Assembly (NCBI GenBank): GCA_027064125.1
Contig: JAMOQF010000165.1
Span: forward strand, 1 to 34,658
Direction: 5' to 3'
Length of the DNA stretch: 34,658 nt
From: Acidobacteriota bacterium
GTDB taxonomy: Bacteria; Acidobacteriota; JAAYUB01; JAMOQF01
Shown here: positions 6,749 through 25,250 of the stretch, piece after piece
Numbering within the stretch: the first letter of the stretch is position 1
How the letters are laid out: each line of letters opens with the position of its first letter
The notes under the pieces: model-generated
What the model saw: only the letters and a program-made list of their open reading frames with translations
What the model was told of the DNA's origin: nothing
Database searches by the model: none
Program-made: the position numbers and the translations under genes

Positions 6749-8818
6749 GTGGGAAGAAAGATACCTTTAGAAAAGACAAGAAATATTGGAATTATGGCAC
6801 ATATTGACGCCGGGAAGACAACAACTACAGAGAGAATACTCTATTATACCGGTATAACCCATAGAATAGGTGAAGTTCATGAAGGAACTGCCACTATGGA
6901 TTGGATGGAGCAGGAGCAGGAAAGAGGTATTACAATAACTTCTGCAGCCACCACGTGCTTTTGGAAAAAGCACAGAATAAATATAATAGATACTCCTGGA
7001 CATGTGGATTTCACTGCAGAAGTTGAAAGGTCCCTCAGGGTTTTGGATGGTGCTGTGGCTGTTTTTTGTGCCGTTGGTGGGGTTGAGCCCCAATCTGAAA
7101 CTGTCTGGAGGCAGGCAGATAAATATAGAGTTCCAAGAATAGCCTTTGTAAATAAAATGGATAGATCGGGTGCTGACTTTATAAATTGTCTTGCAATGAT
7201 GAAAAGCAGACTTGCTACTGTACCGGTTGCTATTCAATTGCCTCTTGGGAAGGAAGATGAGTTCAAAGGAGTCATTGATCTCATAAAGATGAAGGCATAC
7301 GTTTATAAAGACGATACCCTTGGGGCTGAGTATGAGGAAATAGAAATCCCTGAGAAATATCTTGATGAGGCCATTAGTTTTAGGGAAAGAATGCTTGACT
7401 CAATAGTTGAGATGGATGACAATGTCCTTGAAAAGTATCTTGAAGGAGAAGAGATAGGTGAAAAAGAGATAAAATCCTGTATTAGAAAGGGAACAATAAA
7501 TCTGAAATTTACACCTGTTTTGTGTGGATCCGCCTTTAAAAATAAAGGGGTTCAACAACTTCTGGATGCTGTAGTTGATTTCCTTCCATCTCCGGTTGAT
7601 ATTCCTCCTGTAAAGGGTAAAGATCTGGGTGGTAATTTAATTGAGAGAAAGTCGAGTGATGATGAGCCCTTTTCCGCTCTGGTTTTTAAGATTATGACAG
7701 ATCCCTATGTAGGGACTCTCAGTTTTTTGAGGGTATATTCAGGCCATCTTGAAAGTGGTTCCACTGTATTTAATTCCACAAAGGGAAAAAATGAGAGAAT
7801 TGGAAGGCTTTTAAAGATGCACGCCAATAAGAGAGAGGAAATAAAGGAGGTTTGGGCTGGCGATATTGCAGCGGCTGTTGGATTGAAATCCGTTTCTACA
7901 GGTGATACCATTTGTGATAAAAATGCTCCTATAGTACTTGAGAGTCTTGAATTTCCTGCACCTGTTATTTCAGTTGCTGTGGAGCCTAAAACTCAATCTG
8001 ATCTTGAAAAGTTGGGGAATGCCCTTTCGAAACTTTCAGCGGAAGATCCCACCTTTAAAGTTAGAACAGATGAAGAGACGGGTCAGACAATTATCTCTGG
8101 GATGGGGGAATTGCATCTTGAGATAATAGTTGACAGATTAAAAAGGGAATTTAATGTGGAAGTTAATGTTGGAAAACCGCAGGTAGCCTATAAAGAAACC
8201 ATAACAACTTCTGCGGAAGCGGAAGGAAAATTCGTAAAGCAAACTGGTGGTCATGGACAGTATGGACATGTAAAGATAAAAATTGAGCCGGCTGAAAGTG
8301 GGGAAGGACTTTTATTTGTAAATAGTATTGTTGGAGGAGCCATTCCAAAGGAATATATCCCTGCTGTTGAGGCTGGAATTAAAGAAGCCATGGAGATGGG
8401 GGTTATTGCTGGTTTCGAGGTTGTGGATGTGAAGGTGGAGTTATATGATGGATCCTACCATGAAGTTGATTCATCAGAAATGTCTTTTAAAATAGCTGCT
8501 TCTATGGCTTTTAAAGAGGCAGTAAGAAAGGCCAAACCAGTACTTCTTGAGCCAATAATGAAGGTTGAAGTGGTAACACCAGAGGAGTATCTGGGGGATG
8601 TACTTGGCAGTATTAATTCAAGAAGGGGAAGAATTGAAAATATAGAACATAGAATACACACCCAGGTTATTTCAGCCAGTGTTCCACTTGGTGAGATGTT
8701 TGGTTATGCCACAGATTTGAGATCCCTTACTCAAGGAAGGGCCTCCTATACAATGCATTTTTCAAAGTATGAGGAGGTTCCAGAAAGTGTGAAGGAAGAA
8801 ATTTTAGGCAAAAAGTAG
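6749..8818 (+). CDS. fusA: Translation elongation factor G
   Basis: EF-G is the GTPase that drives ribosomal translocation and, with RRF, recycling. The 689-residue product shows every G-motif: G1 AHIDAGKT (17-24), G2 RGITI (59-63), G3 DTPGH (81-85), G4 NKMD (135-138) and G5 GSAFKNKG. It also has the domain III/IV signatures [10 protein letters not shown] and GGHGQYGHV. Sequence and length match canonical housekeeping EF-G. GTG 6749 follows AAGGAG. No tuf gene follows; the next gene is rpsJ behind its own promoter. Confidence 0.98.
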
Positions 8819-8837
8819 AGATTTTTAAAAAAAATAC

Positions 8838-8865
8838 TTGATTTATTAAATTTTATCTGTATAAT
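8838..8865 (+). promoter_or_regulatory. Promoter of the rpsJ (S10) operon
   Basis: A perfect -10 TATAAT (8860-8865) is preceded by TTGATT (8838-8843, 4 of 6) at 16 bp spacing. It lies 20 nt after the fusA stop. Predicted transcription starts near 8872, giving a leader of about 94 nt that contains the hairpin at 8884-8925. The S10-spc-alpha genes are thus probably a separate transcription unit from str. Confidence 0.75.
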
Positions 8866-8883
8866 CTCCCTTCTACCTTTATT

Positions 8884-8925
8884 CAGGTGGTAAGAACCTG
8901 CCAGCACAGGTTCCAATGCCATCTG
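8884..8925 (+). promoter_or_regulatory. Structured leader RNA upstream of rpsJ
   Basis: An outer 7-bp helix pairs CAGGTGG (8884-8890) with CCATCTG (8919-8925), with one G-U. It encloses an internal loop (TAA / CAATG) and an inner perfect 7-bp helix, GAACCTG (8894-8900) with CAGGTTC (8907-8913), closed by the loop CCAGCA. An alternative short pairing, CAGGT 8884-8888 with ACCTG 8896-8900, would exclude both helices. The position, in the 5' UTR of an r-protein operon, suggests an autogenous control element. The protein that would bind it cannot be told. Confidence 0.55.
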
Positions 8926-8965
8926 AGATTAGGTAAAAAATAAAAAAATATGAAGGTGTGAGGCT

Positions 8966-9289
8966 ATGAGTGATGAAATTATCAGGATAAGGCTTAAAGC
9001 CTTTGATGCAAGGTTGCTTGATTTGTCTGTGAGGGCGATAGTGGAAACGGTGCGAAAGAGTGAAGGTTATATCTCCGGTCCTGTGCCCCTTCCCACAGAG
9101 ACAAGACGTTATACTGTTATAAGGTCCCCTCACGTCAATAAAGATTCAAGGGAGCAGTTTGAGATTAAGATTCATAAAAGGTTAATCGATATTCTTGAAC
9201 CTACGAAGGAAGCCGTTGAAAGTCTGATGAAGATGAACTTGCCTTCATCGATAGATGTTGAAATTAAGTCAATTGGAGGAGAGAATTAA
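8966..9289 (+). CDS. rpsJ: 30S ribosomal protein S10
   Basis: S10 is a 30S head protein that, as NusE, also takes part in transcription antitermination. The 107-residue product contains [28 protein letters not shown] and [17 protein letters not shown] 8966 follows GTGAGG; an earlier ATG at 8950 is out of frame. It is the first gene of the S10 operon and is preceded by a promoter and a structured leader. Confidence 0.98.
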
Positions 9290-9969: not shown

Positions 9970-10596
9970 ATGCTTACTATAGATGTGAAAAATTTAAAGA
10001 ATGAAACAGTTGGAAAGACAGAATTAAAGCCTGAAGTTTTTGGGGTTGAATTAAATGAGACATTGATATGGGAAGCAATAAAGCATTTTTTAGCGTGTAA
10101 AAGGGCAGGTACCCACAGCACCAAAACAAGAGGTGATGTAAAAGGTAGCACTCGTAAACCCTGGAGACAAAAGGGAACAGGAAGAGCAAGGGCTGGTGAT
10201 AGAAGATCTCCACTCTGGAGACATGGTGGAACAGTTTTTGGTCCAAAGCCAAGGAGTTATGCTTACACCTTTCCTAAAAAGAAGAAAAGGGCTGCCATGA
10301 GGTGTGCTCTTTCTGAAAGATTGAGAAATAATGAACTTTTTGTGGTTGATTCATTGACTTTTGAATCTCATAAGACGAAGGAATTTGTTAATGTGATGAA
10401 GAATTTTGGAATAGATAGAAAATTGCTTGTAATTGATGATGGATTGAATAACAACCTGTATCTTTCAACGAGAAACATACCAGGTGTCAAATTTGTAGAA
10501 GTTGATGGATTGAATATTTATGATGTGGTACATCACAATAATATTATGTTTTCGTTGAAGGCAATTGAGAAGGTTCAGGAGGTACTTAGCAAATGA
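9970..10596 (+). CDS. rplD: 50S ribosomal protein L4
   Basis: L4 lines the nascent-peptide exit tunnel. The 208-residue product has the tunnel loop with GDVKGSTRKPWRQKGTGRAR, then RSPLWRHGGTVFGPKPRSY. In enterobacteria L4 represses its own S10 operon through the rpsJ leader, which makes it the first candidate ligand for the leader at 8884-8925, although that is inference. The stop overlaps the rplW start by 4 nt (ATGA), so the two are translationally coupled. Confidence 0.98.
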   Translation: MLTIDVKNLKNETVGKTELKPEVFGVELNETLIWEAIKHFLACKRAGTHSTKTRGDVKGSTRKPWRQKGTGRARAGDRRSPLWRHGGTVFGPKPRSYAYTFPKKKKRAAMRCALSERLRNNELFVVDSLTFESHKTKEFVNVMKNFGIDRKLLVIDDGLNNNLYLSTRNIPGVKFVEVDGLNIYDVVHHNNIMFSLKAIEKVQEVLSK

Positions 10597-24181: not shown

Positions 24182-24240
24182 AGGAATAAAATTTTTCATA
24201 AAAAATTTTGAGATATATTCAGAATTTTTGTCTCTATTAT

Positions 24241-24280
24241 AAGAGGGAAATATTTATTCACCAGTTTCCTCTTTAAATTT
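24241..24280 (+). terminator. Possible terminator of the ribosomal supercluster
   Basis: AAGAGG-G-AAA (24241-24250) pairs with TTTCCTCTT (24265-24273), with a single bulged G and a 14-nt loop. The downstream sequence TAAATTT is only weakly T-rich. It lies 60 nt after the rplQ stop. It is plausible but much weaker than the terminator at 25179-25211, so read-through into the repeat region is likely. Confidence 0.4.
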
Positions 24281-24300
24281 CATAGCAAAAATTGAAAAAA

Positions 24301-24404
24301 GTGCCAGAAAGATCAAAATTAAAGGTGTCAGGTTGAAATAACTTTCGCACAATCCCCACCATGGGTTTATTTTATAGAGAAAAAGAAAGGATCTTTTCTG
24401 ACAC
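24301..24404. repeat. Imperfect inverted repeat enclosing about 75 bp
   Basis: GTGCCAGAAAGATC (24301-24314) is matched in inverted orientation by GATCTTTTCTGACAC (24390-24404), with one substitution and one extra base. The enclosed sequence has no ORF and contains another GTGTCAGG near 24326. No flanking target-site duplication is visible. It could be a relic of a small non-autonomous element or a protein-binding site. Confidence 0.4.
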
Positions 24405-24430
24405 TATTTGTTCTATTTGTTTTTGGTAAA

Positions 24431-25111
24431 TCATAAGAAGGCATTTGGGGAGGACAAACAGAAGAACAGATAAAATTCTGGCAAAGATGAAATCTTTTAG
24501 CAAAAGGCAACGATTAAACGATTAAAGGAAATTCTCTTTTTATCCTATAAACCTTTAAGGGGGTATTTAGGGGAGGCAAATGGGAAAACATATTAAATTC
24601 TGGCAGAGTTAATATTTTTTTGGCAAAAATCAACTGATTAAAGGGAAAATTTTTTTTCCTTCTATAAATCTTTAGGGGGAATCTGAGGAGGAAATAGAAG
24701 ATGGAATTTGGTCATACCTAAACTTACGAAAAAGTATCAGGTAAAAAATTTAAGCAAAAAATTTAAGAAAAATTTAAATGGCTTTTAGGGTAGGCAAATA
24801 AAAGAAAATAAAATTCTGGCAGAGTTTACGATTTTCTGGCAGAAATTAATGATTAAAATAAATCCCTTTTCTTCTCTATAAGCCTTTAGGGGGTATTTGG
24901 GGTTGGCAAGTAAAAAAACAGATTAAATTCTGGCACGGCTTAAAATCTTTTAGCAGAGACTAATAAGTATTATTCCTTCTACCTTTCTATAAACCCTATA
25001 AACCTTCTGGATGCTGTTCAGGAGAGGATAGATTTGGAAAAAGGTGTCAGGCGAGAAATAGGCAAGAAAGAAAAAGCAGATAAGCAAGAAAAAGAGGATT
25101 GGTGTCTGGCA
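24431..25111 (+). repeat. Degenerate tandem array, about six units of roughly 111 bp
   Basis: Units start at about 24431, 24545, 24662, 24773, 24876 and 24987, giving spacings of 114, 117, 111, 103 and 111 bp. The consensus order is CTATAAACCTTTAGGGGG, TATTTGGGGAGGCAAA, an A-rich stretch with AGATTAAATTCTGGCAGAG, then a second TGGCA or TAGCA 19-20 bp after the first, then GATTAAA and a pyrimidine-rich run. Copies at 24545 and 24876 are best kept; the third copy (24662) is most eroded. TCTGGCA occurs exactly at 24477, 24599, 24815, 24835, 24929 and 25105, with its reverse complement at 24302. All frames carry frequent stops, so the array is non-coding. It fills most of the gene-free stretch 24182-25224. 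Confidence 0.75.
24743..24778. repeat. Short A-tract tandem repeat inside the array
   Basis: AAAAAATTTAAG is repeated at 24743 and 24756, followed by AAAAATTTAAA at 24768. The period is 12-13 bp. The element lies in the eroded third unit of the larger array. Such near-phased A-tracts would bend or easily melt DNA, but no function can be assigned. Confidence 0.55.
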
Positions 25112-25178
25112 AAATTAGTTTATTTTAATAAATCTTATTTACTGTATACAAAATTTTTCTAATTTCCAATATTTTTAG

Positions 25179-25211
25179 AAAGCCAGGATAAAAATCCTGG
25201 CTTTTTTTTTT
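25179..25211 (+). terminator. Strong intrinsic terminator before hsp20
   Basis: AAAGCCAGGA pairs perfectly with TCCTGGCTTT (GCCAGGA 25182-25188 with TCCTGGC 25195-25201, plus AAA/TTT) around the loop TAAAAA. A run of ten T residues follows (25202-25211). It is the best terminator in the window and reads on the + strand, yet the nearest upstream gene on that strand, rplQ, ends about 1 kb earlier. Confidence 0.92.
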
Positions 25212-25224
25212 GCCCTTATTGTTT

Positions 25225-25230
25225 TATAAT
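25225..25230 (+). promoter_or_regulatory. -10 box for the hsp20 gene
   Basis: A perfect TATAAT lies 20 bp before the hsp20 ATG. At 17 bp spacing the -35 position is TTTTTT, within the terminator T-run, which is a poor match. Transcription from here would give a leader of about 14 nt with no Shine-Dalgarno, or would need another sigma factor's -35. Confidence 0.5.
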
Positions 25231-25250
25231 ATCCTCTATTTTTACATTTT

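Follow-up and report, generated by a model that had tools for sequence, protein, structure and literature searches.

In the window, the whole 34,658-nt stretch of Acidobacteriota DNA analysed here, the genes fusA (6749-8818) and rpsJ (8966-9289) flank a 147-nt spacer consisting in large part of a TTGATT-16-TATAAT box followed by a 94-nt leader. NCBIfam models named the products of fusA (EF-G), rpsJ (S10), rplC (L3) and rplD (L4). The promoter call, made on the sequence match by itself, is weak, as 8 promoter-type sites were seen between 7500 and 10500 on both strands against 6.2 expected. A TATAAT box also lies 5' of the hairpin described below in five further genomes of the order (G001-G005), and in the window the outer helix starts 17 nt beyond the end of this box. 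Far downstream, the stretch of about 1 kb that follows the L17 gene (PF01196), 24200-25250, contains no listed ORF of at least 80 amino acids. The features of the locus are given below, where G000-G005 are genomes of the window's order and f23 is a second family of the phylum.

8838..8865, + strand: sigma-70-like promoter, TTGATT-16-TATAAT, 10/12 matches
8872..8965, + strand: 5' leader of rpsJ, its start at about 8872 being placed from the -10 box
8874..8878, + strand: 5' closing segment, predicted on thermodynamic grounds to pair with 8931-8935
8882..8892, + strand: outer helix, 5' strand UUCAGGUGGUA, pairing with 8917-8927; compensatory change in 5/11 pairs within the order
8893, + strand: internal loop, 5' side, an A here, with C in G003-G005 and either U or A in f23
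8894..8900, + strand: inner helix, 5' strand GAACCUG; GAACC in 5/5 aligned sequences
8901..8906, + strand: apical loop, conserved in neither length nor sequence
8907..8913, + strand: inner helix, 3' strand CAGGUUC, pairing with 8894-8900
8914..8916, + strand: internal loop, 3' side, CAA; CAC in G002 and some f23 genomes
8917..8927, + strand: outer helix, 3' strand UGCCAUCUGAG, pairing with 8882-8892
8952..8958, + strand: Shine-Dalgarno region of rpsJ, GAAGGUG, from sequence and spacing to the AUG at 8966
8966..9289, + strand: rpsJ (S10), NCBIfam NF001861
9314..9949, + strand: rplC (L3), NCBIfam
9970..10596, + strand: rplD (L4), identity from NCBIfam; putatively the likeliest ligand

The leader (8872-8965) has a predicted minimum free energy of -31.3 kcal/mol, compared with -17.55 +/- 3.07 for shuffled sequences (z -4.48; 0/200 as low), and the core of the hairpin alone gives a z of -5.49 (0/300 shuffles as low). 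The predicted fold is a nested hairpin. Its outer helix has 11 bp and is separated by a 1x3 internal loop from an inner helix of 7 bp, which carries a six-base apical loop. The structured leader that the original prediction had placed before rpsJ is confirmed by this fold and by the presence of the helices it described; it had proposed two 7-bp helices around an asymmetric loop, of which the inner helix and the asymmetry hold, while the outer helix is longer than was claimed.

The hairpin was found before rpsJ in all six genomes of the order returned by the searches (G000-G005), the assemblies of which are fragmented (180-470 contigs, contamination 2-5%). An alignment of the order, A1, comprises five distinct sequences from three lineages. 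In A1 no letter of the inner helix GAACC/GGUUC changes, which leaves this helix uninformative for covariation within the order, and the letters of the internal loop are nearly invariant. The outer helix has been rewritten, with both-side compensatory changes at five of its 11 pairs, and 93.8% of the cells in the alignment are paired. Covariation in A1 was 0.450, compared with 0.211 +/- 0.048 in shuffled alignments (0/500 reached the observed value) and at most 0.131 in slid controls; less extreme measures were the five both-side-changed pairs, reached by 38/500 shuffles, and the further pair types, reached by 11/500. RNAalifold, run unaided on A1, returned the identical 16 pairs, and the cores fold with z values of -5.5, -4.4, -3.3, -3.2 and -2.3 across the order. 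Thus, when the helices were examined for conservation and covariation in relatives, the outer helix proved to be both kept and covarying.

Because the hairpin occupies the fusA-rpsJ spacer in the window, it might in principle belong to fusA, as its 3' end or a terminator. This is very improbable, since the hairpin has no U-run behind it, the search for terminator-like sites found none at that place, every genome of the order has a TATAAT box upstream of the hairpin, and the hairpin still precedes rpsJ in locus L004 (from G004), where the gene 5' of the leader encodes MgtE (Pfam PF01769). Upstream sequence in G003 and G005 is nearly as in L004, and the gene 5' of the leader in L008 (from G002) encodes EF-G. 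With MgtE upstream in L004 but EF-G in L008, the hairpin can be said to stay with rpsJ. In genus g3 (L003-L005) the S10 operon is no longer found behind fusA, and an MgtE transporter gene ends upstream (Pfam on L004). The tuf gene is not adjacent to rpsJ in the order; 5/6 genomes carry tuf at full length on a separate contig, and tuf matches in G001 are partial or weak only. Among 93 rpsJ loci of the phylum, the gene upstream of rpsJ was recognised as tuf in 62, as fusA in 23 and as neither in 8.

The range of the hairpin was assessed with covariance models. R1, built from the order, matched 6/396 genomes of the phylum with E values of 5.5e-13 to 1.4e-18, the next match being at 0.004; these six strong matches are its training sequences, so that the search demonstrates a restricted range rather than discovery, and it was run with stricter filters, which lose some weak matches. 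Two of the four matches at E 0.004-0.043 (L133 and L134) were rejected, having no rpsJ among their ORFs. The pattern GGTAAGAACCN{0,30}GGTTCCA matched in 8 of the 396 genomes, and the matches in G000-G002 lie at rpsJ. Rfam 15 gave no match above the gathering cut-off in the window and nine related loci; with lax filters over 8819-8990 the best match (E 0.78) lay on the opposite strand, to a snoRNA model, and over four f23 loci the matches all fell below the cut-off.

A hairpin with the same loop signature immediately precedes rpsJ in f23, a family presumably resembling Holophaga and Geothrix. After both groups had been seen, the core was turned into a descriptor (UA-N-G, five or more inner pairs, C-CA[A/C]-U[G/U]) and applied to the last 300 nt before rpsJ (shorter in 27/93) at 93 loci from 52 families. 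It matched 14 of these, comprising the six loci of the order (families f1 and f2) and eight of f23, and none of the other 79. The chance rate of the descriptor was 2/1860 shuffled leaders. Over the 1.2 Mb of loci scanned it matched eight times away from rpsJ; three of those matches fell in loci that had been fetched for their scores with R2, a model built from both groups. R2 found 44 places at E <= 1e-6 in the 396 genomes, 6 in the order and 38 in f23 (nine genera), with the next match at 0.0024. The hairpin is present in all 38 listed f23 genomes that have an S10 match; G283, also of f23, lacks both. In each of the 44 genomes the descriptor is followed within 420 nt by the N-terminus of S10, a consistent position upstream of a ribosomal-protein gene such as ribosomal-protein leaders have. 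Of the weaker R2 matches (E 0.0024 and up), four were discarded, L231-L233 because no rpsJ leader was seen in the sequence and L242 because it lies across a long opposite-strand ORF. A further 39 genomes, reached via named contigs, gave R2 nothing better than E 0.086.

The common form in f23 is CAC(G/A)UCUA-U-GGACGG..CCGUCC-CAA-UGGA-GUG. In L023 the hairpin ends 3 nt before the AUG, with GGAG within the outer helix, and in the two f23 leaders computed this Shine-Dalgarno GGAG is paired with a total probability of 0.89-0.99. The stems hardly vary across the 14 distinct rows of the f23 alignment (99.5% of cells pair), with one compensatory change in an outer pair from A-U to U-A in L235 and variation at the apical pair; whole f23 leaders, computed for eight loci, have modest fold z values of -1.3 to -3.3.

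Common to the hairpins of the order and of f23 is the loop signature UA-N-G / C-CA[A/C]-UG. It is quite conceivable, if short of probable, that the two are nevertheless unrelated and that the match in the loop reflects chance or separate adaptation to different ligands. The helices differ, and the register of the outer helix is shifted between the groups by a bulge. When R1, which is blind to f23, was run over 40 rpsJ loci (five of them from f23; 18 kb), it returned five matches up to E 10, finding three of the five f23 hairpins in register at E 1.3 (L165), 1.9 (L164) and 7.4 (L163), missing those in L161 and L162 and making two other matches elsewhere; on L024 it scored 7.2 bits (E 7.6). Scores in this range are compatible with unrelated hairpins. 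In a joint alignment, both-side-changed pairs and further pair types were no better than in shuffles (377/500 and 487/500), a count that leaves out the outermost helix because its register differs between the groups. Against independent origins stand the low chance rate of the descriptor and the alternation of CAA with CAC opposite a variable facing base, seen in both groups. The shared signature suggests a common protein-binding site acting on translation, a link of moderate strength that need not mean a common origin. More tentatively still, UA-N-G / C-CA(A/C)-UG could be an old S10-operon operator of the phylum in which the contact loop has been kept while the helices were rewritten and the place moved. 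In f23 it would then lie within the Shine-Dalgarno helix; in the window's genus it would stand some 24 nt ahead of the Shine-Dalgarno, with a 5'-arm switch as an option, and in the sister family it would be found around 170-200 nt upstream of the start codon. If so, one RNA-protein contact would drive different regulatory outputs, providing a natural series for studying how an operator changes mechanism.

The leader of the window is probably a ribosomal-protein leader, that is, an autogenous operator of the S10 operon, with L4 its most likely ligand. Transcription would start at about 8872, and the nested hairpin would present its 1x3 loop (U.G / A-U / N x CA(A/C) / G-C) to one of the ribosomal proteins that the downstream genes encode. 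When in excess over free rRNA, this protein would bind the hairpin and close the ribosome-binding site, so that rpsJ and the genes that follow are translated less. In f23 the predicted outer helix itself contains the Shine-Dalgarno, and with GGAG paired in the hairpin, stabilisation by a protein would block initiation. For the window, the 5' arm ACCUU may pair with the Shine-Dalgarno AAGGU rather than close the hairpin. Protein binding, the identity of the ligand, and repression and its mode are all inferred.

L4 is favoured as the ligand by precedent, since it controls the S10 operon in E. coli. Known ligands serve in PMC7247131 as the best guide to the ligand of a leader, within limits of which that source warns. 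A leader of the same kind binding S10, L3, L2, or another protein or complex of the operon is a substantial possibility, although not one we would call likely. PMC7247131 calls ligand guesses for multi-gene operons uncertain and includes an L2 leader candidate assigned by 'closest gene', and no resemblance to the rRNA site of L4 was found. The comparison of the loop with 23S and 16S sites, proposed at the outset, gave no match: neither short patterns over the 23S of E. coli and G005 nor paired-loop scans of E. coli 23S, 16S and 5S and of G005 23S placed a look-alike in the right structure, and R1 run over two 23S loci made one match, to E. coli 23S (9.6 bits, E 1.3). An S8-like site, considered on the basis of rRNA structure, was dropped because the facing base varies. 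Against a different ligand, L4 is named as the established S10-operon ligand in both PMC10931766 and PMC7247131.

A function that needs no protein, whether in stabilising the mRNA at its 5' end or in tuning translation in a general way, would fit a stable hairpin near the 5' end that is followed, up to the start codon, by A-rich and mostly unpaired sequence. It is nonetheless unlikely, as the loop nucleotides and inner helix are conserved beyond what a stabiliser should need, and the same asymmetric loop recurs in f23 with other helices.

How binding to an autogenous operator might reach the ribosome-binding site in the window's genus is suggested by alternative pairings. The Shine-Dalgarno GAAGGUG of the window starts 24 nt past the outer helix. 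Thermodynamic prediction indicates that ACCUU (8875-8879), which overlaps the closing segment, can instead pair with the Shine-Dalgarno AAGGU, the state with the foot of the hairpin formed being at -31.8 and the Shine-Dalgarno-paired state at -31.2, a gap of 0.6 kcal/mol. In the sister genome G001 the corresponding values are -27.2 and -24.0, leaving the sequestered state 3.2 kcal/mol worse. Shuffled 5' ends paired as well as the real one in 26/1000 cases for the window and 219/1000 for G001, and when 45 nt of rpsJ were added, the Shine-Dalgarno of the window paired with coding sequence instead. In view of the G001 energies, the shuffled 5' ends and the pairing with coding sequence, a switch between the 5' arm and the Shine-Dalgarno is offered as a suggestion for the window. 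The competing 5-bp pairing claimed in the original prediction, taken to be CAGGU (8884-8888) with ACCUG (8896-8900), reaches 5 bp in the window only; between the same strands G002 can form at most 4 bp, and G001, G003 and G004 at most 3 bp, and a conserved competing helix was therefore rejected. In G002-G005 the hairpin lies approximately 170-200 nt from the rpsJ start codon, so that its output there would have to be longer-range or transcriptional.

The S10 operon is among the largest ribosomal-protein operons, and in the literature covered its control is described for Gammaproteobacteria and some Firmicutes only. In E. coli, a long and highly structured 5' UTR mediates control by L4 of both transcription (through NusA and a terminator) and translation (PMC10931766). 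The leader of the window resembles it in being a structured 5' leader of the S10 operon with presumed autogenous control, but is only about 94 nt long and has a single nested hairpin; nothing terminator-like, comparable to the E. coli attenuator, was found before rpsJ in the window. R1 found no match up to E 10 over the E. coli locus (L121) with filters off. The E. coli leader contains GUAAGAACGGUUAC, superficially like GGUAAGAACC; the predicted structure differs and the likeness was taken as chance. The leader of Firmicutes and Clostridia likewise precedes rpsJ and is that lineage's own solution. Several clostridial loci have there a sequence of the type GCGAUGA..GUGAAAGGUUGCU..UUUCAC and not a UA-N-G/C-CAA-UG hairpin, as read from the loci rather than from a published alignment, and R1 had no match before rpsJ in the clostridial-type loci L032, L046, L053, L063 and L072. 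A further candidate leader before rpsJ, the motif RLC-47-1 of Peptostreptococcaceae, is reported in PMC11109978 from three genera of another lineage.

In being compact, covarying, lineage-restricted and located before ribosomal-protein genes, the hairpin resembles ribosomal leaders generally, as these are characterised in PMC7247131. Table 1 of that source gives rpsJ as a regulated gene for 0/20 motifs, and its text has 0 occurrences of 'Acidobacteri-'. The open-library literature contained S10 leaders of Gammaproteobacteria and of Firmicutes/Clostridia and the Peptostreptococcaceae rpsJ motif, none recognised as this hairpin. The leader is unlike the E. coli and Firmicutes S10 leaders tested and matches no Rfam family; self-control by ribosomal proteins is itself common. 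The view that it is distinct from the E. coli L4 leader and undescribed is partly supported, by the lack of an R1 match on the E. coli locus and of an Rfam family. Being small, covarying and lineage-restricted, it constitutes a directly testable candidate operator, and the f23 version, at about 40 nt, is a Shine-Dalgarno hairpin in minimal form.

Other elements recur around the f23 hairpin. In the fusA-rpsJ spacer of several of the loci L023-L025 and L161-L165, a terminator-like hairpin (AGCCGUUG..CAGCGGC, then UUUUGUU) overlaps a promoter-like TTGNNN-17-TATNCT that lies immediately 5' of the leader; G299 (L237) has the promoter-like boxes but not this hairpin. Between fusA and the terminator-like hairpin, L023-L025 and L161-L165 share a recurrent GCCCC..GGGGTGA.. 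sequence, for which Rfam gave no match in L023-L025. Many of the f23 leaders inspected also have two more hairpins, GUCC..GGAC and GGGCG..CGCCC, between the promoter and the Shine-Dalgarno hairpin, and strands of these might compete with the core stem.
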